Shown: in pieces, positions 2,366 through 55,260 of the stretch
Layout of the letters: every line of letters starts with the position of its first letter
Numbering within the stretch: the first letter of the stretch is position 1
DNA from: Cephalotus follicularis
Taxonomy: Eukaryota > Streptophyta > Magnoliopsida > Oxalidales > Cephalotaceae
Assembly (NCBI GenBank): GCA_001972305.1
Contig: BDDD01001804.1
Span: 155,100 to 219,099 of the forward strand
DNA length: 64,000 nt
Direction: 5' to 3'
Made by a program: the position numbers and the translations under genes
Notes under the pieces: model-generated
What the model was told of the DNA's origin: nothing
The model's database searches: none
Seen by the model: only the letters and a program-made list of their open reading frames with translations

Positions 2366-2470
2366 TTAAGCGTCGACAATTTAATTCAAAGCGTCGACAG
2401 TGTTCTTCACTTAAACGTCGATGAAATTCTATCTTAAGCGTCGACGATTTAATTCTAAGCGTCGACGGTT
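2366..2470. repeat. Phased GTCGAC palindrome array, Gy1 3' LTR cluster 1
   Basis: Five units of the AAGCGTCGACG type with the G of GTC at 2372, 2393, 2417, 2440 and 2461, i.e. spacings of 21, 24, 23 and 21 bp. Spacers are T-rich and poorly conserved while the palindromic core is kept; the third unit has decayed to GTCGAT. The matching cluster in the other LTR has about eight units. Confidence 0.85.
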
Positions 2471-9170: not shown

Positions 9171-9338
9171 CCTTAGGCGTCGACAGTTTTGACTTAAGCG
9201 TCGACAGCTTAATTCAAAGTACCATCAGTAATCTTAAAGCGTCGACAGTGTTCTTCACTTAAGCGTCGATGAATTTCTACCTTAAGCGTAGACCATTTTG
9301 CCTTAAGCGTCGATGGTTTAATTCTAAGCGTTGATGAT
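9171..9338. repeat. Phased palindrome array, Gy1 5' LTR cluster 1
   Basis: About eight units, with cores at 9179, 9200, 9219 (very degenerate), 9241, 9265, 9288, 9309 and 9330. Spacings are 19-24 bp, most often 21. Units read GGCGTCGACAG, AGCGTCGATGG and similar. The 3' LTR has five units at this place. Confidence 0.82.
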
Positions 9339-12063: not shown

Positions 12064-12097
12064 AAGCGTCGACGCTTCTTGGTAAAGCGTCAGCGCT
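12064..12097. repeat. Perfect 14-bp palindrome and neighbour in LTR-X
   Basis: AAGCGTCGACGCTT at 12064-12077 is a perfect 14-bp palindrome. The next unit, AAGCGTCAGCGCTT, has its core at 12089, 21 bp after the first (12068). Confidence 0.85.
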
Positions 12098-23929: not shown

Positions 23930-24769
23930 TGTAATGACCCGTGTTAATTTTGGACAAATTAGCATTTGGGCCTTTGGGAAATATTTCTTTTCCTTAGGTT
24001 GGTTCGGTTTTGGCTTATCTTTGGTAAGGCCCAATGTGGTAAGTTATGAGATAAAGGAGATATTTGTTGACTTTACCTTGGGAAGCCCAAAACTTTTTGA
24101 GGAAGCTTGGAAGTTGGTGTGCTTTCGGCTGAAGATAGTGATAGTTGTTGTTTCTGTCAGTTCACGTTGGAGGAAGTGTTTTTTCTTGTGAGCTTTTCTT
24201 TCCTTTCTTCTTCATTTTCTCTGTAGGAAGTCTAGAGGAGGGGTGAATAGACTTATAAAAATTAACTAGCAAAAATATCACAATCAATTTAAATTCAATC
24301 ACACAAATGCGGAAATATAAAGAGTGTAGGGTTGAGAGAGATTGCAAACAGATGTATAGTGGTTCAGCAAACCGCCTACGTCCACTCCCTAAGGCCTCCC
24401 CTTGAGTATTTCACTAGGTATGCCCCAATCTGGGCTTGAAACTCCAACCGAGCTTCAACAACCTTCGCTCCAACCAAGCGAATATAAATTTGCTCCAACC
24501 AAGCAAAACAAGAGACAACCTCTCTTGTTTATGTGTGAAAGTACTGTTTAAAGATTACAAATTCGTAATGAATTTGTTTACAATTTCGCTCAATTTGAAC
24601 AAAGCTCTTAGTGTATAGAAAATGTAAATTACGAAGGCTTTGTAATGTGAGGGATAGCTTTGATATGATCTCTTTTGATGTTTTGAAAGCTTGGAATTGT
24701 GTTTGAGTTGACTATAATGAATGTTCACTTTGATTGCAAGAGATGCCCCCAAGAATGCTCCACTTTGGC

Positions 24770-24776
24770 ATTTATA
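24770..24776 (-). promoter_or_regulatory. TATA box of Co3 3' LTR
   Basis: Minus strand TATAAAT, 45 bp on the transcribed side of the nearest palindrome unit (core 24821). Same arrangement as in the 5' LTR. Confidence 0.65.
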
Positions 24777-24816
24777 CTTGTGCTCCAACGGATCAATTTT
24801 TGAAGTTCAGTTATAA

Positions 24817-25250
24817 TCCAGTCGGCTGGATTTATATGGCAGTCAGCTGGATTTGATGGCGCGTATTTTGAATATAGCCGTTGGTGATGGACAGTCGGCT
24901 GCTTCCTCTGGGCAGTCGGCTGGTAGACCTGGCAGTCGACTGGTGCTCTGTTCCAGTCGGCTATTGGTGCTAGAAATGGAGTTTTCAGAAGTCACTGCCT
25001 GAAATTGCACAAATGTGGACAGTCGGCTGGATTCACTGGCAGTTGACTGGATCCCCTGGCAGTCAACTGGTACCCTGGTTCAGTCGGCTGTCTTGGCCTG
25101 GCAGTCGACTTCTCCCCTGTGGCAGTCGATTGGATCATGTGTTCCTGCAGTTTCTGGACTTGTTTGAAGAACCAGTCGGCTACTCAACTCATGGCAGTCG
25201 ACTACTCATCCTTGGCAGTCGGCTGGATTTTTTGGCAGTCTGCTGGATTG
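24817..25250. repeat. Phased palindrome array in Co3 3' LTR (16 units)
   Basis: Sixteen CAGTCGACTG-type units. Cores at 24821, 24842, 24894, 24915, 24935, 24956, 25022, 25042, 25062, 25083, 25104, 25125, 25175, 25197, 25218 and 25238. Within the four groups every spacing is 20, 21 or 22 bp. Spacers are unrelated in sequence. Variants include GTCGGC, GTCAGC, GTTGAC, GTCAAC and GTCGAT; several fit loss of the central CpG. On the sense (minus) strand the GTCGGC units read CAGCCGACTG and so contain RCCGAC. Confidence 0.92.
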
Positions 25251-25409
25251 CCCTGTACGTGCAGAAATAGCCTTGGCACAACTTTGGACACAAAATCAAG
25301 TGAGTATATGAAGTTGTAACTCAGAGAATTATGCATACAAGTGTTATACGTTTGTTAATCATCAAAATAACATATGTTAATACAATTAACGGGGTGGCAA
25401 AGGCTAACA

Positions 25410-25424
25410 ATCTACCCCTTTTTG
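25410..25424 (-). other. Co3 polypurine tract
   Basis: Plus-strand ATCTACCCCTTTTTG next to the 3' LTR; the minus strand is an AAAAAGGGGTAG run, the position expected for plus-strand priming. Confidence 0.8.
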
Positions 25425-26159
25425 ATGATTGACAAAACATGCTCATTTTGCATAAAGTCTTGTCAAACTAACCATTTTTAGTTCCAAAGTTCAATATTGT
25501 CAATTTTATCTTAACCATTGCATATGGCATATCAAAATACACTTACTCAACATAATATTTTCAATGAATATCCATTTTGAACAAAATATGCAACTTTAAC
25601 AATATAGTCATTATACATGCAACTTCAATAACATTATGCAACTTCAATGCAACCTTAATAACATTTATAAACCTTATGCAATACAACATCTCTTCCCCTT
25701 TATGCAATTTCCCCCAAATGCAAGTACAATCATATCTCCCTAATGCAAATGCTACTTTCAACATATTTATGCAACTTCTCCAAACATTGTTATTTGTTAT
25801 TTCTCTCTCCCATCATGCAATGCAAAATGTATTTCTCCCCCTTTTTGTCAAACAACAAAAAGAGTAACGGAAGCTCCCCCTCAATCAAAGCACGGATTGA
25901 AGAGCTCCCCCTCAACATATGCATACATATTCAATTAAGTAGAGAAGCAATGAAGTACACAATTATATAAATCACATTCATTCAACATAAGACAATAGAG
26001 ATTGAGACACATTGCCATTAAACACTCAAAAACATCAAGTACATTAACCAACACAAATTGTCTTTTACATAATTCATCAACAATTGAAGAAAGACATTAC
26101 AAATTCAAAGTTCACCAATACAATGAAAACATGAGAATGCAACTAATGTAGCTCAAGAT
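25425..26159 (-). other. Co3 3' untranslated region with extra PPT-like runs
   Basis: No coding similarity. On the minus strand it holds several purine runs resembling the true PPT: near 25690, 25710, 25832 (AAAAAGGGGGAG), 25873 (GAGGGGGAGCT) and 25904 (GAGGGGGAGCT). Repeated PPT-like tracts upstream of the 3' LTR are a known trait of SIRE-type elements. Many ATGCAAC(T)TTCAA-like short repeats fill the rest. Confidence 0.7.
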
Positions 26160-27495
26160 TGTCACACCCCGTTTTTCGGTTCCATCATTAGACAAGCATA
26201 TATAGTGATATCAGTATTAAACATATATTCCAGCATTTTGTTTAACAGAATATAACAATGTGCGGAATCGGTCAATACACCGAAATACAAATTACAAGCC
26301 ATCCGCACGCATCCCATACTACGTGCGGGTACAATTCAAACATAATCCTTAACATAAGGAAATACAACATAAACGAGATATGAATTGTTCCTTTCATTAC
26401 AATACATCAAAGAAATAACAACCTTGAAACGACAAGCGAGAAGCTCTCCAAAGCTTCAGCAGCAGTCTCCGAACGTCCTTGCTCAATCTGTAATTGTAGG
26501 GGTTAGCCGTTGTCCTCACTTGGCTAAGTTGGAAGATAAAGTATGCTGAGGAATATATGAATGCAACATGTATGACAGTTTATATAAAAATATCAGTTCA
26601 GTGAGCCATTATATAAGAAAACATGCCAAGTGGCCTTAAACAGTACATATGCAAAGATACCGCACAAGGGTACAATCAATTCATTCAGTGGTTGGGTGTC
26701 ACATGTCGCTAACTCCTAGCACCAACTGTGCACCACCTAACTATCACCCTATACACCGAGGATGATAGAACAGGTAACATTTACTACCGGCGTTGGCGGG
26801 TAGTTTAACAGTAATTTCGGCAATTGCAGACAGTGGGGTGATACTCTGGCCAACTCCTGGCACCCAGGATCACATCCATAATCAGTGATATCCTCCATCA
26901 CTAACTACGGCAGTAGCATAGACAATCAATTCAATCAGTACAATCAGTAATAATATTACATATATAATCAATATGCAATATTAAGGTGTTTTCTTTAGAA
27001 ACATATAACATTTCAGTAATCGTACATCTCATGTGAGGAAACGATATCAGTACAGTGGTGGTTTCCAATTCGGAAACAAAACAGTAGGTGCCTCTCATAT
27101 TGGAGGAAATCAGTGGTACCTTTAAACAATAAGTGTTCCTTTGAAATGGATAGTAAATATCATAATTTTGGTACAAAGCCCATAAATGGTTTCAATCTTT
27201 AAATTATCAGTGGTAATGGTGTTAATAGCACCAAACAGTATCTACTAACATAAGTAGCATATTCAGTAACATTGATCAAAACAGTAGTTTTTGTAACTAA
27301 TAGTTTTCACTTGAAATGGTGTTTAAAACCATAAAATTGTGCATATAGCACATAGTTTCATTCGATCAGTGAAATATCAGTAGGAATGATGTTAAATAAC
27401 ATCAAACAGTACATACTATATGATAGTAGCATATACAAATCAATAGCAATGCAAAACGATAGCAATTCAATCAGTTGTTATGTAATTTCTGCCCA

Positions 27496-27612
27496 GACAG
27501 TCGACTGCCCTCAAGAACTAGTCGGCTGTTGGGTTGTGTAGTCGACTACCAGGCTTTGCCAGTAGACTGGATCAATTGTGTAGTCGACTGTTTTCAATGC
27601 CAGTCGACTGTT
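27496..27612. repeat. Phased palindrome array, sG-B cluster 1
   Basis: Six units with cores at 27500, 27521, 27541, 27562, 27583 and 27603, i.e. spacings 21, 20, 21, 21, 20. Four read AGTCGACT, one GTCGGC, one GTAGAC. Uninterrupted and very regular. Confidence 0.93.
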
Positions 27613-28499
27613 TTTGCCCAGAAATGCAGGCAGAACAGTGTATGTGTAGTACGATTTCAATACAAATCAGTTCAATGCAAGTAGAAATTAACATACATGA
27701 AATGCATGAACATATCATCCAAAACATAACACTACCCCTACCTCAGATGCTATCCCAAGATCAATTGTAGGTGATCTTTCTCTTCAAAGCTTCCAAAGCC
27801 TTTTCCAAGCTTCCATCAACAATTCTTTTAGTCTCAGTAGGTTCAATCTATACATACATGTTTATGGATACATGCAACAGTAACAGTAGATTCAGTAAAC
27901 ACTTATAGCCATTCCAATCAATAGCTTAAGTCATTAGTTCATTACCTTATATCAACTCCCTTTTTTACCACACCTTATGCCCTTTTCAATTATATCAATC
28001 CATTATCTCTTAAGTGGCCAGTAGATGTGTTTGTATATCCATAAGAAATTCAGTAGCTTATTATGTAACTAACAACAGCTTACTAATCAATTTTAGAGGT
28101 TACATATCCATTCCCTTGAACTAATGTGCCATATTTCATATCCATTCATAATTCTTAGAAGATGCTAATAATAACCATAATAATAGAAGATTAAGCATTC
28201 TTCTAGATACCTTACTGTTGGATTACAACAACACAAGGAGTTCGAATTTGAACTTACCAGGAAAGTCCCCAAGCTTGGCTCTCTTGTTCACTCACTCTTG
28301 GAGTCTCAAACTTCAAGCATGCAAATTCCAATTCTCCAGTAGTTCCTCAATCTTTAGTGTTTCTGGCATTCACCCTCATCTTATGCACAGCTGATATAGG
28401 CTCAGGAGTGTTTAATTTTGCCAGAGTCCTTTACACTAACAATTTCCTTTCTTCTCCCCTTCACATGCCTTTGTTTCTTACTCATTTCTCCTTTCAATG

Positions 28500-28513
28500 T
28501 TGCAGGTGGCAGG
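28500..28513. promoter_or_regulatory. Conserved LTR block TTGCAGGTGGCAGG (sG-B)
   Basis: Identical to the blocks in both Gy1 LTRs although most surrounding sequence differs. It follows a pyrimidine-rich run. Confidence 0.45.
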
Positions 28514-28649
28514 TCTGCAAGATGCAGAGCACATACAAGCATGTCTTTGCATGTTCTGGCAGTTTGTGTCGCCTCCCAACACTTGTCCCTTCATGCAAAG
28601 CCCCGTCATTCAGCTTACAGGCATGCACAGACACCTGTTCTGTCACAAT

Positions 28650-28732
28650 TCTAGTCGACTGCCTCATGTGTCCAGTCGACTGCCATACCACGAATCAACC
28701 CAGTCGACTGTTGCCCTGTGACAGTCGACTGT
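28650..28732. repeat. Phased palindrome array, sG-B cluster 2
   Basis: Four AGTCGACT units with cores at 28654, 28675, 28703 and 28724 (spacings 21, 28, 21). All four cores are intact GTCGAC. Confidence 0.9.
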
Positions 28733-28903
28733 GGAGGCTGATTGAATAAACTTACTTAGGTCATTTAACCCATTTACATATTAACTCATTCTTGGCATAC
28801 AAGTAAGGCATATAACACATTAACTGGACAATTAATTCAATTAAAATGTATATTTTATTTCAATAATTGGATCAATATACATGAATTGAAATTGCGGTTA
28901 TTA

Positions 28904-30079
28904 CAAAGATGAATCGGGAGGAGGGTGTTGAGGGAATGCATTCTGAAACATTTGAATGAGATTGGCTTGTCCCTGAATGATAGTGGCTTGACCCTCACAA
29001 AACTGGTCCATTCTCCCTTTGAGGTACTCAATGTTGGCTTGATCTAAGTCCATCCTAGCCTGAAGAGACTCCAGGGTAGGTCTGCTGCTGCTGCTGCTCG
29101 TTCTGACATGTGCTCTCATCTCAAACTGTTAAGCATCATCCTCATCGTCATCCTCATCATCACCAGCTCTAACATTAGCTTGTTCTCTCATTTGCTCTCT
29201 TCCCCCACCTTGTAACTTAACCCACACTCTATCCTCAAAATGAATATTACAAAGTTTAAGCCCAAACTTATTAATCAACTGCTTATGAGATGGTTTGACA
29301 TACTGCTCATCATCAGGAATGTTAAGGTTTAGAGATTCGAAAATCCTACTCAAAAGCATAGGATAAGGAGTATGATTGGGTCTAGATAACAAGTGATTGA
29401 CTATTAGGTAGGGAAGGTTCACGGGAGTTCCATTTTTAACACAAGCTATGAATTTAAGGTCTCGCTCCGAAGGAAGAGTGTGCGAGCCTTCTCTTGGTAG
29501 GAATGTGTTTGTGACAAGTAAAAGGATAATCGTAGTGGCAATAGGTAGATGGCTACTAGTCACATTCATAATTGGGTTAACATTGGGTTGTTCCAAGAAA
29601 ATCCCTAAGGCTTCCATTTTTCCAACACCATTAAAATGTGTTATTCCGGAATTGGGAATTCCTAGGGTTTCAGCAATCAATTCAGGAGTTATGGATATGG
29701 GATTGCCTAGGACAAAAGAATTAGCAACGCAAGAGGTTGAGCTATCAAGATTGGCATAAAACAACTTGACTAGTCTAGGGTAAATGACATGTGATGAGCA
29801 AAGATAGTCAAACCAACCCATTCCTTCTAACCAAGTGATAACAATAGCTAGATTACTAACTAAAACATCTCTAGTTAACCATTTTTCAAAATGTAACTTC
29901 ACAAAGCTAAAAACGGAATTATACCGAATTTCTTTCTCTTTGGAGAGAAAGAGGTTGTTGTCGTAGTCCAATTCCGCTTGTGAAGCCCTTGGTTTCCTAG
30001 AAGCCATGCTCTTTTGTCTTTTTGGTGCCGTTTGAGTCGAATACAGGTCGAAATTGAGAGATTTTAGGGTTTTGGGCAT
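28904..30079 (-). pseudogene. Co3 third ORF (plant transposon-protein-like, env position)
   Basis: Main open part is 29129-30079; the methionine at 30079 (MPKTLKSLNFDLYS) is preferred over the upstream one at 30259, whose first 60 residues only translate the palindrome spacer. Conserved-looking blocks are WLTRDVLVSNLAIVITWLEG, RLVKLFYANLDSS, VLGNPISITPELIAETLGIP and FESLNLNIPDDE. They resemble the family catalogued as putative plant transposon protein (Transposase_32-like), assigned from memory. An acidic DDEDDDEDDA tail follows, then a TAA at 29129. The same frame then continues for 72 residues of likely coiled coil. sG-B ends the frame. Function unknown; this position has been called env-like in SIRE elements. 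Confidence 0.75.
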
Positions 30080-30145
30080 TTTAGAATTGGGAGAGAAGTG
30101 AGAGAGCAGATGGGAATTCGGGTTTAAAACCCTGATTCCCGCACT

Positions 30146-30220
30146 TCCAGTCGACTGGGCCTTTAATGCCAGTCGACTGGATGGCAGGGAGTCGACTGGA
30201 CAAATTGTCCAGTCGGCTGT
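30146..30220. repeat. Palindrome array between Co3 pol and third ORF
   Basis: Four units, cores 30150, 30172, 30191 and 30212 (spacings 22, 19, 21). Three read AGTCGACTGG and one AGTCGGCTG. It lies about 70 bp upstream of the preferred third-ORF start, outside any LTR, so it is not there merely because LTRs are repeated. Confidence 0.9.
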
Positions 30221-30436
30221 TTTCTGCAGAATTTGGAAATGCAGAAAATGCCAATCCAAATTGTTTTACAAACCTTTGGTTAACTATTATGGACTAATAG
30301 CAACCTAGGTACATGAGCTAATTTAAGTTATTGAGTTAAAAACTCAATGTTTAATGCATGATGATCTTTGAAAAACATTTTTCAACCAATTCAATCAAAA
30401 ATTAACAAAGCATCACAATTGCACATATATTGAGAG

Positions 30437-32287
30437 TTAGGAGGGATTTTGCATACCTAGCTCCCTTCGCAATGTGCAAAATCTTTCATTGCCCAGTGGC
30501 TTTGTGAATATATCTGCAACTTGGTTCAAGGTGTCAATATATTCAAGAAAAATATCACCTTTTTCAACATGGTCTCTAAGAAAGTGATGTCTAATCTCAA
30601 TGTGCTTAGACTTAGAGTGTTGAACAGGATTTTTGCTTAAATTGATAGCACTTGTATTATCACATTTTATGCAAACATTGCTAATACTAATGCCGAAGTC
30701 ACAAAGTTGTTGCTTTAGCCACAAGACTTGTGCACAACAACTTCCCGCCGCTACATATTCGGCTTCGGTGGTTGATAGAGCTACACTATTTTGTTTCTTG
30801 GAAAACCAAGACACTAAAGAATTGCCAAGGAATTGGCAAGTGCCACTAGTGCTCTTTCTATCAAGCTTACAACCACCATAATCGGTATCGTAATAGGCAT
30901 GCAAATTAAACAATGAATCATTCGAATAAAACAATCCTAATAGAGGTGTGTATGCAAGATATCTAAAGATTCGCTTAACCGCAATTAAGTGAGATTCTTT
31001 AGGTGATGATTGATACCTAGCACATAGACATACACTAAACATTATGTCCGGTCTACTAGCGGTAAGGTAAAAGAGTGATCCTATCATGCTTCTATATAAT
31101 TTTTGATCTAATTCCTTACCATTTTCATCCTTGTCAAGTTTGGTTGTTATGCTCATTGGAGTCTTGCAAGGCTTTGAGTGTTCCATTCCAAATCGCTTGA
31201 GTAAGTCCTTTGTATATTTGGATTGGTTGATGAAAGTGCCTTCATTTCCTTGTTGGATTTGAAATCCAAGGAAATACTTGAGTTCTCCCATCATACTCAT
31301 CTCGAATTCACCTTGCATAGTGTTAGCAAACTCAACGCAAAGAGAATCGTTAGTAGAACTAAATATAATGTCATCTACATATATTTGTACAATAAGAATA
31401 TCATCAAGTTTAGTTTTTACAAAAAGTGTTTTATCAACTAAACCTCTTTTAAAATCATTTTCCAAGAGAAATTGTGAAAGCCTTTCATACCAAGCTCTTG
31501 GTGCTTGCTTTAAGCCATAAAGTGCTTTAGACAATTTAAAAACATGATCGGGAAAATGCATATTTTCAAATCCCGGAGGTTGTTGAACATAAACTTTCTC
31601 ATTTATAATGCCATTTAAAAATGCACTTTTGACATCCATTTGATGCAATTTAAAACCTTTAAAACAAGCAAAGGCCATTAACAATCTAATAGCTTCTAGT
31701 CTAGCTACGGGAGCAAAGGTTTCATCATAGTCAATGCCTTCCTCTTGACTATAACCTTGTGCGACCAATCTAGCCTTATTTCTAATAACCAACCCATTTT
31801 CATTCATTTTATTTCTAAAAATCCATTTAGTTCCAATTATGGATTGATTTTTAGGCCTAGGAACTAATGACCAAACATTGCTTTTGTCAAATTGGTTTAG
31901 TTCCTCTTGCATAGCCACAATCCAACAATCATCATTTAAAGCATCAAAAATATTTTTGGGTTCGATATTGGAAATAAAACCTACATTATCACAATACTCC
32001 CTAAGAGCGGAATGAGTTCTTACCCCCTCGGTAGGATTACCGATTACCTCGTTGTCTTTTACGTACTCTCTTTCTCTTTTTGCTATTAGCTCCTTGGTGA
32101 CTTGAGTTTGTTGAATTTCTTCTTCATGTGCACCTTCTCCTTCCATCTTGTCAATTTTGACATCTTCTTTAGAGATGTCCACGCCTTCCATTTGCTCCAA
32201 AATACCTACATCATCAACAATATCTCCCTTTCTCGGAGCACTATTAGACTCTTCAAATAAAACATGAATAGACTCTTCAATAATCAA
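30437..32287 (-). CDS. Co3 pol: reverse transcriptase and RNase H (open C-terminal part)
   Basis: A 616-residue open frame. RT covers about residues 139-380: VWSLVPRPKNQSIIGTKWIF, KARLVAQGYSQEEGIDYDET, HQMDVKSAFLNG (D218) and QIYVDDIIFS (YVDD 303-306). RNase H follows with YYDTDYGG (about 467-470), STTEAEYVAAG (E508) and IKCDNTSAIN (D543). It ends FCTLRRELGMQNPS, the normal SIRE-like pol end. All catalytic residues are present. The M at 32287 is only the first methionine after a TGA at 32306-32308; the same frame extends upstream through two more stops to integrase and protease. It is the longest intact coding stretch in the window. Confidence 0.93.
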   Translation of the reverse strand: MIIEESIHVLFEESNSAPRKGDIVDDVGILEQMEGVDISKEDVKIDKMEGEGAHEEEIQQTQVTKELIAKREREYVKDNEVIGNPTEGVRTHSALREYCDNVGFISNIEPKNIFDALNDDCWIVAMQEELNQFDKSNVWSLVPRPKNQSIIGTKWIFRNKMNENGLVIRNKARLVAQGYSQEEGIDYDETFAPVARLEAIRLLMAFACFKGFKLHQMDVKSAFLNGIINEKVYVQQPPGFENMHFPDHVFKLSKALYGLKQAPRAWYERLSQFLLENDFKRGLVDKTLFVKTKLDDILIVQIYVDDIIFSSTNDSLCVEFANTMQGEFEMSMMGELKYFLGFQIQQGNEGTFINQSKYTKDLLKRFGMEHSKPCKTPMSITTKLDKDENGKELDQKLYRSMIGSLFYLTASRPDIMFSVCLCARYQSSPKESHLIAVKRIFRYLAYTPLLGLFYSNDSLFNLHAYYDTDYGGCKLDRKSTSGTCQFLGNSLVSWFSKKQNSVALSTTEAEYVAAGSCCAQVLWLKQQLCDFGISISNVCIKCDNTSAINLSKNPVQHSKSKHIEIRHHFLRDHVEKGDIFLEYIDTLNQVADIFTKPLGNERFCTLRRELGMQNPS

Positions 32288-32806
32288 AGTCCTTTTATTA
32301 AATACTCAATATGCCTTAGAATTTAAAGAGTAGCCTAGAAATATTCCTTCATCACTTTTGGCATCAAATTTTCCAAGATTGTCTTTCCCATTGTTTAAAA
32401 TGAAAACTTTGCAACCAAAAGGTCTCAAGTGACTAACACTTGGTTTTCTATCGTTAAAGAGTTCATATGGGGTTTTCTTCAAAATAGATCAAATCATGAC
32501 TCTATTTATTATGTAACATGCGGTGTTCACGGCTTCCACCCAAAAATATTTTGGCAAATTATTTTCACACAACATGGTTCTCCCCATTTCTTCTATGGTT
32601 CTATTCCTCCTTTCAACAACACCATTTTGTTGAGGAGTTCTAGGAGCCGAGAAGTTATGGTGAATACCTAGTTCATTACAAAAGTTTTCAAAACCAAGAT
32701 TTTCAAATTCTTTGTCGTGATCACTACGTGTGCTAACAATAGATAGACTCTTTTCATTTTGAATTCGTCTACCAAATTTAACAAAGGAATCTAAGGCATC
32801 ACTCTT
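32288..32806 (-). pseudogene. Co3 integrase, C-terminal half
   Basis: Same frame as its neighbours but interrupted by a TGA at 32489-32491 and one at 32306-32308, both explained by CGA to TGA. Readable blocks include APRTPQQNGVVERRNRTIEE (catalytic glutamate region), TACYIINRV and RPFGCKVFILNNGKDNLGKF. This is the end of the rve core plus the linker to RT. Confidence 0.85.
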
Positions 32807-33541
32807 TTAAGCTAAGAAAATAACCCAAGTAAACCTAGAGTAATCATCTACAATTACTAGGCCATATTGTTTACCACCAAGGCTTAAAGTTCTAGTTGGT
32901 CCAAACAAATCAATGTGCAATAGTTGTAAAACTCTAGTAGTAGAAACAACATTTTTAGCTTTAAAAGATGTTCTTGTTTGTTTGCCTTGTGCACAAGCAT
33001 CACACAATTTATCATTTTCAAATTTCATTTTTGGCAAACCAATTACTAAATATTTTCTTGAAAGTTTGGCAAGAACATCCATGCTAGCATGGCCTAATCT
33101 TCTATGCCAAAGCCATTTGTCATTTGTATTAGCATTAAAACAAACATCTTTTGAAAACATTTCTTTTAGATAAACAATATACACATTGCCTTGCCTATGA
33201 CCAACAAACTTCACATCATTGGTGCTAATGTCAATTATGTGACAACAAGAGGATTCAAAATTAATCTTAAATCCTATATCACAAAATTGGCTAACACTAA
33301 GAAAATTATGCTTAAGGCCTAAAACATAAGAGACATTTTCAATTAAAGTAAAAAATTTGTTACCTATTGAGCCAATACCAACAATTTTGGCCTTGTTGTT
33401 ATCTCCAAAGGTGACCTTTCCTCCATCAATTTCTTTAAGATCAATGAAGAGGCTTTTGTCACCCGTCATGTGCTTCGAGCATCCGCTATCCACGTACCAC
33501 GGTTGTTCCTCGTTGTGGTTGGCTTGCAAGCACTGTTCCAC
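32807..33541 (-). pseudogene. Co3 protease, pre-integrase and start of integrase
   Basis: A 244-residue segment. It opens with the aspartic protease, PWYVDSGCSKHMTGD. The GAG-pre-integrase HHCC finger follows (KWLWHRRLGHASMDVLAKLS and KLCDACAQGKQTRTSFKAKN). The integrase core begins with LHIDLFGPTRTLSLGGKQYG and LVIVDDYSRFTWVIFLA, including the first catalytic aspartate. It closes at a TAA (32807-32809). Downstream coding is in the same frame. Confidence 0.9.
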
Positions 33542-33749
33542 CTACAAAAATGTCAAAATATTTTGACCTTAGTACCCATTGTTTGTTGGGTCCTTTAGAG
33601 TTACATTTTGGACTAATTGTTCCCTTGGGAACCCAAACTTGTCTCAATGTAATTGGATTATGATTAGGTGATGGTCTAGTGTGTGAATGTGAGTGTGCAA
33701 TCCTTTTAAAGCATTTATTTCTAACATGTCCCATCTTAAATAAGTACAA
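33542..33749 (-). pseudogene. Co3 gag-protease linker, shifted frame
   Basis: A stretch read in a different frame from both neighbours, with KMGHVRNKCFKR (second zinc-knuckle remnant, GH and C) and QVWVPKGTISPKCNSKGPNK, a block usually found just before SIRE protease. Two frame changes, near 33740 and 33541, isolate it. Confidence 0.75.
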
Positions 33750-34213
33750 TGAGGTCTAGTTTTAGTATTCTTTAACTTAGCCTTAACCTCTAGAGGAGCA
33801 TAACCTATACCGGTTTTATCTAGGTATGATCTTTGACTACCTAGCATCTCCTCTAATTTCTTGCTACCTAAAGTGAATTTACTAAATGATTTTTCTAAAT
33901 TCACATTCTTTTCTTTTAGTGATTCTACTTCATTTTCTAAAGCAATGTCATTAGATGGAGTAGGTTTAGCAATGTCATTTTTCAAGAGACTAAGTTCACT
34001 TTTTAATTTCTCATTTTCAATTACTAGCAAGTCCTTCTCATTTTCAATGCTAACCATATTTTTCTTAAGAGATGAACATTGAGAACATTTCTTTTTAAAC
34101 TCTACTAGTAATTCATCAAAAGCAAATTGTAATTCACCAAAGGTATAAGAATCGTCAACCTCATTGTCGCTATCCTCGGTGTCGCTCAATGCCATGAAGC
34201 AAAGGTTGGCCAC
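33750..34213 (-). pseudogene. Co3 gag-pol linker with coiled coil
   Basis: An open segment (to 33644 in this frame) that starts MANLCFMALSDTEDSDNEVD. It continues as a long heptad-rich helix: LQFAFDELLVEFKKKCSQC, then IENEKLKSELSLLKNDIA and VESLKEKNVNLEKSFSKF. Such acidic-plus-coiled-coil linkers lie between gag and protease in SIRE-like elements. A TAG at 34277 separates it from gag in the same frame. Confidence 0.82.
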
Positions 34214-34276
34214 TTGTTCGGTGACTTCATCATCGGAAGAGTCATCATCACTTAAGTGCCAAGCTTTGAGGGCTTT

Positions 34277-34738
34277 CTACTTGAATAGTTTCTTCTTCTT
34301 CAATTGAGGACAATCCACTTTGATATGTCCTGGTTTGTTACATTCAAAGCATGTAGGAGGATCCATCTTGCTTCCCTCTCCCTTGTTGAAGTTCTTCTTT
34401 TGAAACCTTCTTGCTTTGTTCATCTTTGTGAATTTTGTGAAACGTTTCGCAAGGAGAACGTAGTCCTCTTCTTCAAGCTCCTCATCACTTGATACTTCTT
34501 CCTTGTGAATGCTCTTGAGGGCTATGTCCTTCCTTCTTTCCTCTTGCGGCTTTGTCTCCACAAGGTTGGCGGATTTCTTGTTCAATTTAACCTCATGAGT
34601 CATGAGGGAGCCAAGAAGTTCTTCAATCTCCATGGTCTTTAGATCCTTTGATTCTTCAATTGCCATGACTTTGGGTTCCCACTCATCATTGAGACACCCT
34701 AGCAATTTTCTCACAAGTTCGTCCTTTCCAAAAAACCT
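34277..34738 (-). pseudogene. Co3 gag, C-terminal part with zinc knuckle
   Basis: From the gag frame change near 34738 onwards: RFFGKDELVRKLLGCLNDEW, then EIEELLGSLMTHEVKLNKK. The CCHC knuckle CFECNKPGHIKVDC lies near the end. The frame is open upstream to 34804, but the first residues there are non-homologous. Confidence 0.85.
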
Positions 34739-35246
34739 TTCCAAGACCAAGTAAACCATTAGTAATATTAAGCAACCGATTATACAAATTCTTGATAGAT
34801 TCATTCAGTTGCATTTTGAACAATTCATAATCTATATTTAATAAAGCAAGTTTAGCATTCTTAACTTGCTGGGTACCCTCATGGGTAAGGATGAGCAATT
34901 TCCACACTTCATGTGCGGAAGTACATCTCCTAACGAGATTGTATTCGGTTTTATCTAGAGATACTAGCAAAATATTAAGGGCTTTATTGTCTATAGTCAA
35001 TTTCCTAAAATCATCCCCATCCCATTCGTCTTCCGATTTGGAAACGAGTTCATTTTTGTCATTTAATTTCGTAGGGATGTGAGGGCCATTTTTCACACTA
35101 AGCCAATTTCTAAAGTCTCTAGACTTAAGGTATATTTCCATACGACTTTTCCAATATGGAAAATCGTCACCACTAAAGAATGGTACCTTAAATTCGGAGA
35201 CATCGTCATTGTGTCTAGATTGGTTGTTCATGCTAGTTGAGGCCAT
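34736..35246 (-). pseudogene. Co3 gag, N-terminal part
   Basis: Starts at MASTSMNNQSRHNDD (35246), 45 bp after the PBS. VPFFSGDDFPYWKSRMEIYL is the retrotran_gag N-terminal signature. SAHEVWKLLILTHEGTQQVK and LNESIKNLYNRLLNITNGL follow, typical of UBN2-type copia gag. One frameshift near 34738 separates it from the rest of gag. Confidence 0.88.
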
Positions 35247-35290
35247 GATCTTTTACTCAAGATGTTAATCTTTGTAAAATGAGCACACTA

Positions 35291-35302
35291 TCTCTGATAC
35301 CA
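35291..35302 (-). other. Co3 primer binding site
   Basis: Minus strand TGGTATCAGAGA, initiator-Met tRNA type, two bases from the LTR end at 35305. Confidence 0.92.
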
Positions 35303-35851
35303 ATTGTAGGAAGTATAGAGGGGGGGTGAATAGACTTATAAAAATTAACTAGCAAAAATACCACAATCAATTTAAATTCAATCACACAAATGCAGAAATA
35401 TAAAGAGTGCAAGGTTGAGAGAGATTGCAAACAGATGTATAGTGGTTCGGAAAACCGCCTACGTCCACTCCCTAAGGCCTCCCCTTGAGTATTTCACTAG
35501 GTATGCCCCAATCCGGGCTTGAAACTCCAACTGAGCTTCAACAACATTCGCTCCAACCAAGCGAATACAAATTTTCTCCAACCGAGCAAAATAAGAGACA
35601 ACCTCTCTTGTTTATGTGTGAAAGTAGTGTTTAAAGATTACAAATTCGTAATGAATTTGTTTACAATTTCGCTCAATTTGAACAAAGCTCTTAGTGTATA
35701 GAAAATGTAAATTGCGAAGGCTTTGTAATGTGAGGATAGCTTTGATATGATCTCTTTTGATGTTTTGAAAGCTTGGAATTGTGCTTGAGTTGACTAGAAT
35801 GAATGTTCACTTTGATTGCAAGAGATGCCCCCAAGAATGCTCCACTTTGGC

Positions 35852-35858
35852 ATTTATA
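35852..35858 (-). promoter_or_regulatory. TATA box of Co3 5' LTR
   Basis: Minus strand TATAAAT within AAGTATAAATGCC, about 45 bp downstream (sense) of the nearest palindrome unit (core 35903). This places the palindrome array in the U3 promoter region of Co3. Confidence 0.68.
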
Positions 35859-35898
35859 CTTGTGCTCCAACGGATCTATTTTTGAAGTTCAGTTATAA

Positions 35899-36308
35899 TC
35901 TAGTCGGCTGGATATATACGGCAGTCAGCTGGATTTGATGGCGCGTATTTTGAATATAGCCGTTGGTGATGGACAGTCGGCTGCTTCCTCTGGGCAGTCG
36001 GCTGGTGGACCTGGCAGTCGACTGGTGCTCTGTTCCAGTCGGCTATTGGTGCTAGAAATGGAGTTTTCAGAAGTCACTGCCTGAAATTGCACAAATGTGG
36101 ACAGTCGGCTGGATTCACTGGCAATCGACTGGATCCCTTGGCAGTCGACTGGTGGCCTGCTTCAGTCGGCTATCTTGGACTGGCAGTCGACTTCTCCCCT
36201 GTGGTAGTCGGCTGGATCATGTGTTCCTGCAGTTTCTGGACTTGTTTGAAGAACCGGTCGGCTACTCAACTCATGGAAGTCGACTACTCATCCTTGGCAG
36301 TCGGTTGG
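35899..36308. repeat. Phased palindrome array in Co3 5' LTR (15 units)
   Basis: Cores at 35903, 35924, 35976, 35997, 36017, 36038, 36104, 36124, 36144, 36165, 36186, 36207, 36257, 36279 and 36300. Spacing within groups is 20-22 bp. Eight units carry GTCGGC, i.e. RCCGAC on the sense strand. Confidence 0.92.
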
Positions 36309-37353
36309 ATTGCCCTGTACCTGCAGAAATAGCCTTGGCACAACTTTGGACACAAAATCAAGTGAGTATATGAAGTTGTAACTCAGAGAATTATGCATAC
36401 AAGTGTTATACGTTTGTTAATCATCAAAATAACATATGTTAATACAATTAACGGGGTGGCAAAGGCCAACATTCTTTGAAGCTTTGTTCGTTATCTGAAG
36501 TTTGGAACGCCCTCGTTGACTACTTGTTTAGCAAGGTCAGTGTTCTCCTTGGTAAGTTAGTGTAACGATGTTCTCGTCGCACAGTAACGGTTGTGAGATT
36601 GAGGAAGGGTTTTGTTGTGGTTCTTATGCGTGAGTGTTCATGCATGTTCCTCGGAAGTTTGTGTTGATGGTTGTAGCTAAGCTTGTTGTGTGTTGATCTT
36701 GTGGAAGAAGATCTAGGCGCGGAGTCCTCACAGCAAGGAAGCTAGTCAGAGGTCTTGCATACTGTGAGTGGAATCTTTCCTTTCTATCAATTGATACTGA
36801 GAGTCTTGATGTTTAATACGACTTTTCCATGATACTATCTTTGACCAGGGTCATTTCTCCTATTGTCTTGTTGATTATTGCATGTTGATACTATTTTCTT
36901 TCGAACAAGGATGCTCTATAGCTGGGTTGGTGTGTTTTCCCCCTATTGTTATAGTATTTCAAGCTTCCTGATATCATGTGTTGTTCTTGGATACTGGTTA
37001 CTGGTATGCTCGGATATATGAGACTCATATTGGTTGGAAGAGGAGTGGGCGTTCGATCCCAATTCCATTCAGCAGTTGCATTGTCCATGATGGGCTGTTG
37101 GGTGTAACTGTGCCCGGGTTCCATACCTGGATCTGCTTGTTTCGTTGGTCTATGGAGAAATGTTGTGTGAGGGTAGCCGATGGATCCACTACTTCTTTGG
37201 TCAGCCATGATTGAGTGCTCGGACACGAGATTGCCGACCTGAGATGGTCTAAGTGGTGATTCGCTCACCTCTGGGTCGAAGTTATCCTCTGTCATTTCAA
37301 CAAGGGTGGAGCTGAGCGGTGATTCGCGGGCCCCTTGGTTGATGTTGTATTAT

Positions 37354-39981: not shown

Positions 39982-40207
39982 TGTTATAATCATTATATTA
40001 GATTGTAATATTAAGAATACAGGATGTGACCGTTAGTCATAATTATTACATTTTGAAGTTGTTAAGAAACAAGATAACTGTTAACAAGGGTTTCTTATGT
40101 ATTGATTGGTTAACAAATGTTATGTTAGATGTCAACAATTGTAATGCTATGAACAATTACAACTTTATAAAGTGAAAGGATAGTTAACAAGTGAGACTCT
40201 TTATGAA

Positions 40208-40440
40208 AGGTCATAACATTTACAATGAAAACATATGACTTTATAAAGAGATACAATTGTAATGGACATACATGACTTTTTATGAAAGGTCATAACCATT
40301 AAAATGAAAACATAGAACTTTATAAAGCGATGTAATTGTAATGCATACATGACATTTTATGAAATGTCATAAACTTTAAAATGAAAATATATGACTTTAT
40401 AAAGAGATGTAATTGTAATGGACATACATGACTTTACAAA
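40208..40440 (+). repeat. About 78-bp tandem repeat in Co2 LTR (3 copies)
   Basis: Copies start with (A)GGTCATAA or ATGTCATAA, then AAAATGAAAACATATGACTTTA and GTAATTGTAATG..CATACATGAC. They end just upstream of the TATA box, so they could be promoter repeats. The 3' LTR has fewer copies. Confidence 0.8.
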
Positions 40441-42760: not shown

Positions 42761-43054
42761 TGTAACGCCCCTAAATTCCATAAATAATTATTATGAAATT
42801 GGTGCGTGTACGATCGTGATAAAACCGATAGAGGCCCGGAGTGATAAAAATGCATTACTCATTTAAGCCGTAATTACATTGGCCAAAATGACTAATAAAG
42901 CCTATTTTTAATGCGCGACAGTAAAGCCCAATGTTTGAAATATTATTGCAATTATTTTGGTGGCTGTTCGGATAATTTATATAGCGATTCGCGGAAAAAT
43001 CGGGACCCAGACCTTAGTATTTTACCAGGAAATACTAAGGAGGAAGCAAGGTTA

Positions 43055-43200
43055 TAAGGAAGGGAGAGAGAGACACGGGCGCATCACGCGCCCGTGCAAG
43101 AAAGAGGCAGCGAGCGCTCTGTGCGCCCGCGCTAGAGAGAGAGCGAGAGAGAGTGGGAGAGAGCTCGGAGCAGAGGGAGAGAGAGCGCACCGGAGCCAGC
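43055..43200 (+). other. GC- and GA-rich tract in sG-C
   Basis: AGAGAGAGAG runs mixed with CpG-rich CGCGCCCGTGC-type sequence, then CT-rich sequence to 43310. Unlike the AT-rich surroundings. Open frames across it (42957-43394 plus, 43035-43367 minus) are compositional. Confidence 0.75.
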
Positions 43201-44191
43201 CACCGGGCCAGGAGACGACGGCGAGCAACCCAGGCCCTCAACCCGCCAGTAAGCTCTTCCCCCTTCCCCTCCTTTCTTTTCCTTTTCTTCTTCTTCCCCA
43301 CAACTGTCAGCGCCTCTGCCAGGCGTTTCCCGGCGCCGTTAGCATCGCGGATGGAGGGGGTTTTCATCTAGAAGGCCCGCTCTTCCCATTTTGACCACCA
43401 TTGACACGTGGTTCGGCCGGAATCGGTCGGAATCAGTGCACCGAGTCGACTCAGCGAGTTGACTCACGGCCACCTGACACCGCGCTTTTGACGCCGAGTC
43501 TCGGTGAGTCACAGGCATGGATGTGTATAACTGGTGAATGTGGGGTATTTTTGAGTGGTGATCGGACCTGTTGAGGTCCGACGAGTCGATTCAATGAGTC
43601 GCAACTCGCTGCCGGCCGTGGCGCGGCGTTCGGCGCTGATTCATGATGAGTCTTGATCGATTTTGTGTAGACCGTTCAATGTGGAACCCGTTTATGGGTG
43701 TTTTACAAGCTGGATGAGTTGGCCATAATCTGGCCGGCGTTTCGGTGGCGGCAATGTTTTCTGTGCATTGATCATAATGAAATGTGCAGTGTGTGAGTGG
43801 CAATTGGATTTGGAGGTAAGGACTTGATCGATTGGCAAGAACCAGATTCGGTTCAACGGTAATTGGAAAGGTTCAACAATTGAACCGGCGGCTCGACTGT
43901 GCTGTTGCGGCTGTGATTTCCTAACTTGGAATCAAAGGTAGGGGATTTTATAAATGTGGTTTAAGTTCAATTATAATAAATATTCATTGATGAAATGCAT
44001 GCATATCGTATCTTGGAATGATTGTGGGCTGTGGATTGTGGGTGGTGTGATTGTGTTAGGGTTGCTATGAATAGCTAACCTGTTATGATTATTGTGTTTT
44101 ACAATGATTGGGAATCGGATTGCATGTGTTGTATGCCTTGATTTCTATCGGTTTTGAGACGGGTTGAAGGAACCATGTTTTGGTTCACTTA

Positions 44192-44295
44192 ACCGTCGAC
44201 GCTTAGGAAAAAAGCGTCGACGCTATGGATTGTTATACGGAGGATGAGTCCTGATTCGCGATAAACGTCGACGCTTAGAGAAAACGTCGATGCTA
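44192..44295. repeat. GTCGACGCT palindrome units in sG-C
   Basis: Two pairs: cores at 44195 and 44216 (21 bp apart) and at 44267 and 44286 (19 bp apart). Units read CCGTCGACGCTTAG, GCGTCGACGCTATG, ACGTCGACGCTTAG and ACGTCGATGCTATG. Confidence 0.85.
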
Positions 44296-44373
44296 TGATT
44301 CGTTGTGTGTTAGAATGGATTGTTGTGAGTTGTCGCTTTGTTTTGCTATTTTTTTCTGCACTATCTACAGAAT

Positions 44374-44684
44374 CCAGCCAACTGTCCAAAAGGACAGCCG
44401 ACTGCTCGAGTGCGCCAGTAGACTGTTCAGTATGAACAACCGACTACTCAATGGATCCAGCCGACTGTGCTTGGGAGCCAGTCAACTGTCCATGTGTGTT
44501 ACAGAGAAATGCCTGCAGAGGCTTGAGTAGCAGACTGCTGTACGCCAGCGACCGACTGTTGGGTATGAACAGCCGACTGTCAAGGATGACAGTCGACTGT
44601 CGAGTGAGGGCAGCTGACTGCCAGTGTTAGGGTAGCCGACTGTTGAAGGAAAACAACCGACTGTTAGTGAGAGACAACCGACTG
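44374..44684. repeat. Phased CAGCCGACTG array in sG-C (13 units)
   Basis: Cores at 44377, 44397, 44418, 44439, 44460, 44481 and, after a gap, 44551, 44572, 44592, 44613, 44635, 44656, 44677. Spacing is 20-22 bp throughout each half. Eight units contain RCCGAC on the sense strand. A TATAAAT lies about 100 bp further on, at 44785. Confidence 0.92.
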
Positions 44685-44784
44685 TTAGGGTCTGTTTTGC
44701 ATTATGAGCATGTGAATGCATCGTGTACTGTGATAACTGATTGTGAACTGTTATACCATCTTTTGGAAGTGCATTCTTGATTAT

Positions 44785-44791
44785 TATAAAT
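44785..44791 (+). promoter_or_regulatory. Possible TATA box downstream of the sG-C array
   Basis: TATAAAT about 108 bp after the last palindrome core. AT-rich surroundings make a chance match possible. Confidence 0.35.
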
Positions 44792-45311
44792 CATTACTTT
44801 ACACGAAAATGTATGTTTTGCGAAAATATATATTCGAAAGATCGTGAAAATGGCTTCCAAAACACCGTGTATCGAGTTTTGTGATATTGTGAACTGAGAA
44901 CCATGACATCGTGAAAATGAGTTTGCTTTCAAGTATTTTGTTTTATAAATTACTTGGGAAAACTGTTTTGAGCATCGAGATGATTGTGTTTGTGTTTGAC
45001 CGTGAATGTTGATTGTGATTGCGACTGTGGCCGTACTAGTTGCGTGGCGGAGATGCCAGCGATGACTAGTGGTCGGGTTGACTCAGGGACCAGGAGTTGG
45101 CTGGGTGACTCACTGTACCGTGACCTGCTTCGTGCCGTCCGGAGTTGGGGCCGATGACAGGAGTATGATGTTGGGGCCAGGAGTTGGCGACGCTCTTCGT
45201 ACCCACCATGAACCATGAACCGAGAATTGTGTAGTCCTTTGGACTTGTTTGGAACCGTGAAATGTGATATTGTAATCTTGTGACATCATGAACTGTGACA
45301 TTGTGGTTGGG

Positions 45312-45338
45312 TATATATATATATATATATATATATAT
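45312..45338. repeat. (AT)n microsatellite in sG-C
   Basis: Uninterrupted AT dinucleotides of about 27 bp. Confidence 0.95.
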
Positions 45339-45813
45339 GCATCGGGATATAGTATGTATTGCATCATATTGCATTCATTGCATAGCATTCTTTATCATTG
45401 ACCCCACATCATGTTTATAACTTAGCCGAGTGAGGACAAAGGCTAACCCCCTACAATTTCAGATTGATTTCAGGTTGATGCAGCGGATTGTTACCGTTGA
45501 GCTCCGTGGAGCAAAGTGGAGTTTATGTTGTTTTTACTTTTGAGAAATGTTAATGGATCATTGTAATAAATGAATCGATGTATTGATGAATATTGTTCAC
45601 GCTCCGTTTGAGGGAAGTTAACTTTGATGATGTTTATTGTTGTAGCATGTAGTATGTGATGCATGTTACGTTTTAATTCGGCTTATATTTAAATGCTTCC
45701 GCAAGTTGTTCATGGCATTGGAAAGTTTTAAATTTATGGTAAATCGCATAAGCCGGATTTATATGTTAATTGCCACCACTATATATATGTCGGTTGTGAA
45801 ACGGGGTGTGACA

Positions 45814-54021: not shown

Positions 54022-54365
54022 AGGCGTCGACGTCATTCCTTAAGGCGTCGATGTCTTTTTCATACCAGAGGGTTCCAGTTCGTGAACCTCAATTCTAGGG
54101 GTTAGAACCCGGCCTTTTAATCCCTCAAGCAACCAAATATCACTCTCAAAACGTGAAAGGGATGCTACTGGTTAACAACAATATATCCAGAACATCAAAT
54201 TGAAATCAAACAGGTGATTCCTAAGTGGCTAAAATGGCCGTCAGAAGCAAATATCGCAGTTCAACGAATTCCCCAGAAAAGGCATCGATGTCAATTGGAA
54301 GACATCGATGTCTTTCACACTTTCACACGAAGGCATCGACGTCTTTTACATAAGCGTCGATGTCT
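54022..54365. repeat. Palindrome units, Gy2 3' LTR cluster 1
   Basis: Pairs at 54026/54047 (21 bp), 54284/54304 (20 bp) and 54335/54356 (21 bp). Typical unit GGCGTCGACGTC, which overlaps GTCGAC and GACGTC palindromes; decayed units read GCATCGATGTC. Confidence 0.87.
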
Positions 54366-55071
54366 GTACAACCCAGAACGGGATTTCCACGATTTTAGCA
54401 CACCAAGCCATTTCCAAATCAAACCTTTACACAACAGATTCATGTATTCATGTAAACTTACATGCATGATCAACTCAGTGTATCACAGTAACACTACAAC
54501 AAGTCCAGAATCCCAAGTCCATCATTAACATGCAATTCACCATGCTATTCATTAACTTAAAACTCAACATGTATATATAAATCCGTCACTTTCCCCTACC
54601 TTATTGTTCCAAGTTAGGAACTGGAAAGTTCACCTCTTTAAGTATCCAAACAGGTCACAGCAGCCTCTCTAGGTCTGTCCCGTAGCTGCACCAGTGGTTC
54701 CAAGGTCCAGGCTCCAAGCTCCAAGCTTAACAATCGCACACACACACTCCCTGTTTTCTTCTGGTGTTATAAAACGAGAGATACAAGTGGGGAGGAATAT
54801 CCTTAAGCAGACAGCTTCCTCCTAACCTCTTCCTTTTGTCATTTCACAGGCCACCCCGAGATCTCTCCCACTTCCAGGTTTTCTGCATTTCTTTTTGTTT
54901 TCTATTCCCCCTTTTTGCAGGTTGCATGATAGGATGGCACAATCCCTTGCATGTTCCATGTGAGGGTAGGTGTTAGTGCTCCTGGTCAGTACTCCAGCAT
55001 GCCCACCACGTCGAAACGCACTTGAAAAGGCATTAGGTAAAGCCTTTAAACAATCCCCCCCTTGCATGTTA

Positions 55072-55260
55072 CTCTGTCGACGAAGAACGTGATGGCCATT
55101 CTTACAAAGGCGTCGACGTCTTTCCTTAGACGTCGATGTCTTTTCCATTTTCGTAAGAAGGTGTCGATGCCTTCTCCCAAGGTCGACGTGCATGCTCGTG
55201 CATTCACGTGTATCCTGGTTCACAAAGGCGTCGACGTCTTTACAAAAGACGTCTATGTCT
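55072..55260. repeat. Palindrome units, Gy2 3' LTR cluster 2
   Basis: Cores at 55076, 55112, 55132, 55163, 55182, 55230 and 55251; close pairs are 20, 19 and 21 bp apart. Units read GGCGTCGACGTC, GACGTCGATGTC and similar. Confidence 0.87.

Follow-up and report, generated by a model that had tools for sequence, protein, structure and literature searches.

Arrangement of the boxes in the Co3 LTRs

Co3, a copia element in the genome of Cephalotus follicularis, carries in both of its long terminal repeats (LTRs) a series of short CG-centred boxes lying at a nearly constant distance from each other. The locus raises the question of whether the boxes and their distance are kept as sites for a DNA-binding protein or are the product of tandem duplication. 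A sequence-only reading had proposed binding sites under spacing constraint, in which only core and distance are kept. We analyzed the window, i.e., a 64,000-bp stretch of contig BDDD01001804.1 (positions 155,100 to 219,099), to which all coordinates refer unless contig C1 is named. The main features of the array are as follows.

24819..25245, minus strand: box array in the 3' LTR of Co3, 16 CAGYCGACTG-type boxes
35901..36307, minus strand: box array in the 5' LTR of Co3, 15 boxes, one 20-bp unit fewer
24771..24776, minus strand: candidate TATA box (TATAAA), approximately 42 bp downstream of the 3' LTR array in the element sense

Boxes were called in the 3' LTR with at most two mismatches to CAGTCGACTG. 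The 16 boxes and their distances of 20–22 bp within groups, as well as the 15 boxes of the 5' copy, were recovered as the sequence-only reading had counted them. The box starts in the 3' LTR ran from 24819 to 25236 with steps of 21, 52, 21, 20, 21, 66, 20, 20, 21, 21, 21, 50, 22, 21, and 20 bp. Neighbors in a group were thus 20–22 bp apart, and the groups were separated by steps of 50, 52, and 66 bp. In the 5' LTR, 14 of the 15 boxes had at most two mismatches and the box at 36255 had three; the pattern was equal to that of the 3' LTR except for exactly one missing 20-bp unit. The array occupied approximately sense positions 165–591 of the 1188-bp LTR, with TATAAA at 634. The GC content and CpG observed/expected ratio of the cluster were 0.52 and 0.51 in the 3' LTR and 0.53 and 0.67 in the 5' LTR. 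No match was retrieved from Rfam at gathering scores for 24200–36500, or from a protein search with the translation of the array at E ≤ 1.

A motif-free count gave the same period. When CG-centred near-palindromes (at least three of four arm pairs, second LTR copies masked) were paired, 17 pairs were observed at lags of 19–22, compared with at most two in 200 dinucleotide shuffles, and lag 21 was the highest of lags 8–80. Twelve such pairs were left after the Co3 LTRs were removed.

The boxes had been described as GTCGAC palindromes. They are CG-centred and partly symmetric, but GTCGAC was present in just 3 of the 16 boxes of the 3' LTR, and most Co3 boxes read CAGCCGACTG, an imperfect palindrome, in the element sense. 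The box in this sense was YAG-Y-CGACTG. ACT was invariant in all 44 boxes of the five arrays compared below, and position 4 was always a pyrimidine (C in 23 of 44, otherwise T), whereas its mirror position 7 was always A. After 14 loci on contig C1 (some overlapping) were turned so that CAGCCGACTG prevailed, 10 contained any CAGCCGACTG and none contained CAGTCGGCTG. The boxes are oriented, uniformly in the loci inspected; therefore, the term palindrome was only partly right, and an asymmetric reader fits better than a dyad-symmetric one. A general asymmetry of the half-sites (42 versus 10 mismatches, p = 9e-6) was rejected, as it was carried by position 4 and fell to 19 versus 10 (p = 0.14) without this position.

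Classification of Co3

The following features were identified in and around the internal region of Co3.

24222..36471, minus strand: Co3, Sirevirus-type copia element with an LTR pair, primer-site and polypurine junctions, and copia gag/pol domains; a gypsy solo LTR is nested inside
24222..25409, minus strand: 3' LTR of Co3
35305..36471, minus strand: 5' LTR of Co3
29129..30079, minus strand: env-like gene (PF20167), from the first ATG after the boxes
30148..30219, minus strand: four boxes before the env-like gene, steps 22, 19, and 21 bp
25835..25912, minus strand: three exact AGGGGGAG polypurine copies
25412..25419, minus strand: terminal polypurine AGGGGTAG, one base off AGGGGGAG

The 5' LTR junction of Co3 (ACA/ATTGG/TATCAGAGA, also written ACA/ATTGG/TATCAGAG) agreed with the Sirevirus form CA/ATTGG/TATCAGAGC except for the last base. 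The three exact AGGGGGAG copies lay no more than 0.51 kb from the 3' LTR, as a Sirevirus-type polypurine cluster. The junction between the polypurine tract and the 3' LTR showed the near-complementary inverted-repeat arms of Sireviruses (by eye, unscored), and a C-rich LTR end (CACCCCTCCTC) was found, also by eye, approximately 20 bp from the end of the LTR. The flanking 5-mers were TTCTC and TTCTT. A copia-type pol and an env-like gene were represented by PF07727, PF14223, PF13976, PF22936, and PF20167. The size of 12.2 kb, or approximately 9.5 kb once the nested solo LTR is subtracted, fits the Sirevirus range of approximately 8–14 kb. Co3 passed most of the tests applied (junctions, polypurine copies, gag/pol domains, and size) and is classified as a Sirevirus of the Ty1/copia superfamily. 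Its env-like protein had 326 relatives, and all 120 among the matches listed were from Cephalotus follicularis, in which this PF20167 family is hugely amplified. No translated box pairs were found in the first 130 residues of the 120 relatives listed.

The same boxes in Ty3/gypsy LTRs

Boxes of the same type, absent from the sequence-only reading, were also observed at 27498–27610, 28652–28731, 30148–30219, and 44375–44684. Except for the four before the env-like gene, they belong to two solo LTRs, which are listed with a second class of boxes.

26160..28905, minus strand: solo LTR A, assigned to Ty3/gypsy (chromovirus-related); inserted in Co3 and flanked on either side by the target duplication AAGAT
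27498..27610, minus strand: six CAGYCGACTG-type boxes in solo LTR A, steps 21, 20, 21, 21, and 20 bp
28652..28731, minus strand: four boxes in solo LTR A, steps 21, 28, and 21 bp
42761..45813, plus strand: solo LTR B, assigned to Ty3/gypsy (chromovirus-related); inserted in a different copia and flanked by ACTAA and GCTAA
44375..44684, plus strand: 14 CAGYCGACTG-type boxes in solo LTR B; three have three mismatches and could include a chance match
44193..44293, plus strand: four second-class boxes (NCGTCGACGC type) in solo LTR B
2370..2468, minus strand: second-class boxes in the LTR of gypsy element G1, steps 21, 24, 23, and 21 bp
54024..55237, minus strand: second-class boxes in the LTR of chromovirus G2

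Solo LTR A was 71% identical to the LTR of G1 over 559 bp, and solo LTR B was 67% identical to the LTR of G2 over approximately 245 bp; G2 encodes a gypsy pol with a chromodomain (PF00385). Judged by this LTR similarity, both solo LTRs are assigned to chromovirus-related Ty3/gypsy elements.

The 3-kb loci of contig C1 contained arrays near coding sequences of both superfamilies. The arrays at C1:67005–67084 were near an integrase 71–72% identical to that of G2, those at C1:22293 were near an integrase 49% identical to it, and the arrays at C1:73739 and C1:4552 were near a gypsy gag and a copia gag, respectively. The array at C1:7490 was located shortly upstream of a PF20167 gene, and LTRs resembling solo LTR A lay near gypsy integrase on this contig. 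The 30 C1 loci formed 11 clusters, of which three resembled the Co3 LTR and six (approximately four LTR copies) resembled gypsy LTRs; no LTR match was found for the remaining two (C1:7490 and C1:58920). The CAGYCGACTG box at the same step is common to Ty1/copia and Ty3/gypsy elements, which are superfamilies without other clear similarity. Thus, the array is present in Co3, as had been reported, but is not peculiar to it.

The second-class boxes lie at corresponding intervals in G1 and solo LTR A. CG-centred boxes of the NCGTCGACGC type were also observed at 9177–9337, 12066–12096, and 63711–63995, mostly at steps of 19–24 bp; the sites of this class were in gypsy LTRs and in two further places (12 kb and 63.7 kb). 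Solo LTR B additionally contained GAGTCGACTC-like boxes at 43443–43592, with spacings of 13 and 127 bp. Two other tandem repeats, at 63213–63473 (64-bp unit) and 40195–40435 (79-bp unit), were unrelated.

Spacing of the boxes

For five non-redundant arrays from the two superfamilies (44 boxes), 35 of 39 steps did not exceed 30 bp. These short steps comprised 22 of 21 bp, eight of 20 bp, three of 22 bp, and one each of 19 and 28 bp, so that 33 of the 35 were 20–22 bp. With the second class added, 50 of 65 steps were 19–24 bp, with a mean of 20.8 bp. The list of 65 steps and the corresponding set of 79 boxes were made by hand; second LTR copies were left out, as were ten boxes starting at 1467, 2475, 11328, 28566, 43443, 43456, 43583, 45075, 55008, and 63843.

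The whole genome (1.58 Gb) was scanned with the pattern CAGYCGACTG-N{2,32}-CAGYCGACTG, for which fully symmetric pairs are counted on both strands. Box pairs 12–42 bp apart numbered 118,313 on the forward and 118,596 on the reverse strand (236,909 in total), compared with 368 + 345 = 713 for the reversed-pattern control. In agreement with the 20–21 bp peak that the sequence-only reading had named as a check, 55,531 + 55,829 = 111,360 pairs (47%) were exactly 21 bp apart. The 236,909 pairs correspond to approximately one per 6.7 kb, and the box may rank with the most frequent regulatory-looking sequences in the genome. Of the first 100 pairs listed, all on contig C1, 80 were at 19–22 bp, seven at 27–29 bp, and 13 at 40–42 bp, and none were at 12–18 or 30–39 bp. 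A pattern scan of viral contigs gave 46 loci, mostly ordinary-looking repeats with near-copied spacers as judged by GC content and repeat units; these 46 loci showed no apparent sign of plant LTRs, and a reverse transcriptase search of the viral contigs gave no match.

The array had been described as helically phased. At approximately 20.8–21 bp, the main step agrees with two DNA turns, but longer steps are not clearly in phase. A 28-bp step (approximately 2.7 turns) recurs in several LTR families (28652–28731 and loci L092, L093, L095, L099, and L103), which speaks against a pure phase rule. For 15 between-group steps of 25–100 bp, R was 0.49 at 10.5 bp (p approximately 0.03), the mean phase was -0.19 turn, and the V-test gave p = 0.12 at 10.5 bp and 0.03 at 10.4 bp; no convincing helical phase was evident between groups. 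Besides the helix face, the footprint of neighboring proteins may set the step. The proposed spacing constraint is partly supported, by the short steps and by the exact steps of diverged arrays described below, but some steps are 27–29 bp and the between-group phase is not clear.

Conservation of cores and spacers

Ordinary tandem-repeat dynamics could in principle produce such arrays: a unit of 20–21 bp would have been duplicated early in each LTR lineage, the spacers would have drifted, and the step would be kept by descent, perhaps with LTR exchange between the superfamilies, so that the boxes would have little or no function. Several observations fit this explanation. The gain or loss of exactly one 20-bp unit between the Co3 LTRs indicates that tandem duplication is at work. 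TRF found a period of 20–22 inside the Co3 array, and the block at 24888–24964 resembled that at 25016–25089 at 79%. The spacers had been called unrelated, which was nearly so, although their mean identity within the Co3 arrays (0.32–0.36) exceeded that after shuffling (0.26–0.28), a faint sign of descent from tandem units. For solo LTR A, spacer identity was not above the level of shuffles.

Comparison of homologous arrays in diverged gypsy LTRs gave a different result. In these comparisons, L099 and L100 are one place, L092 and L093 are one place, and three comparisons involving L103 were left out because its sequence had been taken from the wrong strand. For the four-box array (array 2), solo LTR A and L099 shared 39 of 40 core positions and 11 of 40 spacer positions, with equal steps of 21, 28, and 21 bp. 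The first 29 bases 3' of this array were identical at 24 positions, and the alignable stretches of the first LTR part were approximately 69–79% identical. As the upstream flank of array 2 was poorly alignable, the statement that spacers change faster than the flank is limited to the 3' side and to one family pair. Array 2 was identical at 0.95 in cores and 0.35 in spacers between solo LTR A and L092 (steps equal, 2/2), and at 0.95 and 0.38, respectively, between L099 and L092. For the six-box array (array 1), solo LTR A was compared with L090 (core 0.92, spacer 0.77; steps equal, 5/5), L100 (core 0.88, spacer 0.77; two steps equal, one unequal), and L092 (core 0.80, spacer 0.37; three steps equal, one unequal). 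Co3 and three C1 copies, two of which are nearly identical to each other, gave 0.85–0.87 for cores and 0.62–0.68 for spacers, with seven equal steps each and one, two, and four unequal ones. Diverged homologous gypsy arrays thus retain 95–97% of their core letters and their exact steps, while their spacers fall to 28–38%, which is the outcome that the sequence-only reading had expected.

At close range, the expectation failed. The two LTRs of Co3 differed at 11 of 150 core positions and at 8 of 257 spacer positions. Of the 11 core differences, 10 were of the C/T type and fell on CG or CHG sites. The changes per such site were similar in cores (10/92), spacers (2/39), and the rest (5/54); cores differ more because they are rich in CG/CHG sites. 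Box divergence between the LTRs (24222–25409 versus 35305–36471) is thus almost entirely of this type, a mark of a heavily methylated array. The cores are unprotected after insertion and decay freely. Among the 30 closest Co3-like copies (of 40 scored, from 4,899 candidates; a few of the 30 loci also contain gypsy coding stretches: four integrase, one gag, and two reverse transcriptase), the diversity of cores (0.060) and spacers (0.054) was about equal, a further point in favor of tandem dynamics. Outside CG/CHG sites, core diversity was 0.025 compared with 0.048 in spacers, and variants present in at least 20% of the 30 copies occurred in 2 of 160 core columns and 11 of 267 spacer columns. 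The claim that only core and distance are kept therefore applies to the diverged arrays but not to the LTR pair or the close copies.

For the arrays of the window, a neutral simulation using the lowest short-indel rate from LTR pairs kept the steps with P of 0.04–0.54, which is compatible with tandem dynamics; higher rates gave at most 0.06. Duplication and drift without function nevertheless seem unlikely to be the full explanation, given the conserved cores and exact steps of the diverged gypsy arrays, the lower core diversity outside CG/CHG sites, and a box and step common to two superfamilies without other clear similarity.

Comparison with RM boxes of Sireviruses

Repeated boxes in the U3 region of Tnt1 act as an enhancer; Co3 resembles Tnt1 in having repeated U3 boxes, but the Tnt1 copies are few. 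Clustered symmetric boxes in Sirevirus LTRs have been known since 2010. According to Bousios 2010 (PMC2829016), these RM boxes are symmetric, have diverged flanks, and are repeated many times in the upper LTR half, a short distance ahead of the TATA box; further copies precede the env gene. The clusters start at 200–400 of the LTR, and the core signature CGG-CCG was reported in 12 of 13 Sirevirus elements, with Tnd-1 lacking it (PMC2829016). The accessible text of that paper states that no common factor could be identified, calls for promoter experiments, and gives RM boxes as restricted to Sireviruses against other Ty1/copia elements (PMC2829016).

Co3 shares with RM boxes the high copy number, dyad symmetry, cluster before the TATA box, copies before env, and diverged flanks (PMC2829016). 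At least eight dyad-symmetric copies in the LTR characterize RM boxes, and Co3 has 16 and 15, with partial symmetry; its array likewise lies in the upper LTR half and is soon followed by a candidate TATA box, and the copies before env are represented by 30148–30219, before the ATG at 30079, and again at C1:7490. RM clusters form a CpG island, for which the GC content and CpG ratio of the Co3 cluster are borderline. The differences lie in the core, which is not CGG-CCG but belongs to a CAGYCGACTG box, in the orientation of the Co3 boxes where RM boxes are fully symmetric, and in the step, which is fixed at 20–22 bp in Co3 and is not given in the accessible RM text (PMC2829016). Sirevirus restriction does not hold here, as the CAGYCGACTG box is also in Ty3/gypsy LTRs. 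The Vitis Sirevirus RM CGGTCGACCG has the core GTCGAC in common with the Co3 box but differs in the arms (PMC2829016, Table 3). Because the placement matches and the CGG-CCG signature is absent, the Co3 array is a variant of RM boxes. No report of the 21-bp step, fixed orientation, or sharing with Ty3/gypsy was found in the open-access literature, although the figures of the 2010 paper may show the step, and among the literature matches listed for the box letters, none was titled on transposons. A step this regular and a box common to both families appear to be new.

Candidate readers of the boxes

On balance, we regard the array as probably a U3 cis-regulatory block made of oriented, spacing-constrained putative sites for a host DNA-binding factor. 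A sequence-specific protein of the host would occupy oriented YAGYCGACTG sites with the core RYCGAC, approximately 20.8 bp apart. These sites would lie ahead of the LTR promoter and, in Sireviruses, ahead of the env-like gene as well. That two superfamilies share the box suggests a protein of the host, and not one of an element, as the binder. Binding would activate transcription or keep the LTR open, and the step of about two turns would put neighboring sites on one helix face. Arrays would gain and lose whole units, and selection in the replicating lineage would then keep cores and steps. RYCGAC was present in 58 of the 79 boxes, compared with 0.60 sites per kb elsewhere, and is used as a form of the DRE/CRT element (PMC7570135). 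From the fit to the CBF/DREB consensus RYCGAC, an AP2/ERF protein is a candidate reader.

By analogy with VANC, an anti-silencing or packaging factor encoded by the element, e.g., the env-like PF20167 protein, might read the boxes instead, which we consider improbable. VANC proteins target short motifs that are tandemly repeated in noncoding DNA and change between related elements (PMC5735166, PMC10398659); the repeated noncoding motif and its turnover among relatives are alike here, the two box classes occupy matching intervals in related gypsy LTRs, and boxes adjoin the PF20167 gene. VANDAL elements differ from Co3 in being DNA transposons with a reader of their own, and no fixed step is reported in the accessible text (PMC5735166). 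The presence of the box in gypsy LTRs argues against an element-encoded reader, as does the lack of a PF20167 match in the 10 ORFs of G1 and G2 tested (0/10). The predicted structure of the env-like protein (mean pLDDT of 34) was too poor to judge DNA binding.

That the boxes act as RNA, with clustered palindromes forming hairpins in LTR transcripts that lead to small RNAs, as proposed for the palindrome clusters of the maize Sireviruses Ji and Opie (PMC10760457, PMC5311732), is quite improbable, since Co3 has a similar palindrome-rich LTR cis-region but predicted folding showed no clear excess of structure beyond composition relative to shuffles in Co3 (z = -1.42, 5 of 100 shuffles as good) or solo LTR B (z = -1.13, 12 of 100), and hairpins require neither a fixed 21-bp step nor an orientation.

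The host-factor reading can be extended, tentatively and from sequence comparison, to one cis-regulatory code in two unrelated superfamilies of LTR retrotransposons, in which one host DNA-binding protein would read an oriented CGAC-core box every two turns. The box and step would be selected, and the spacer letters would change more rapidly than the LTR DNA around them, which might allow escape from homology-based small-RNA silencing at no cost to the binding sites. With a box common to two superfamilies at one step and more than 100,000 pairs in one genome, the reader protein is directly findable, and the diverged natural arrays are ready-made test pieces with scrambled spacers. If selection does drive the turnover of spacers, with boxes and steps retained, a transposon promoter would keep its activator sites and show small-RNA silencing a changing sequence.
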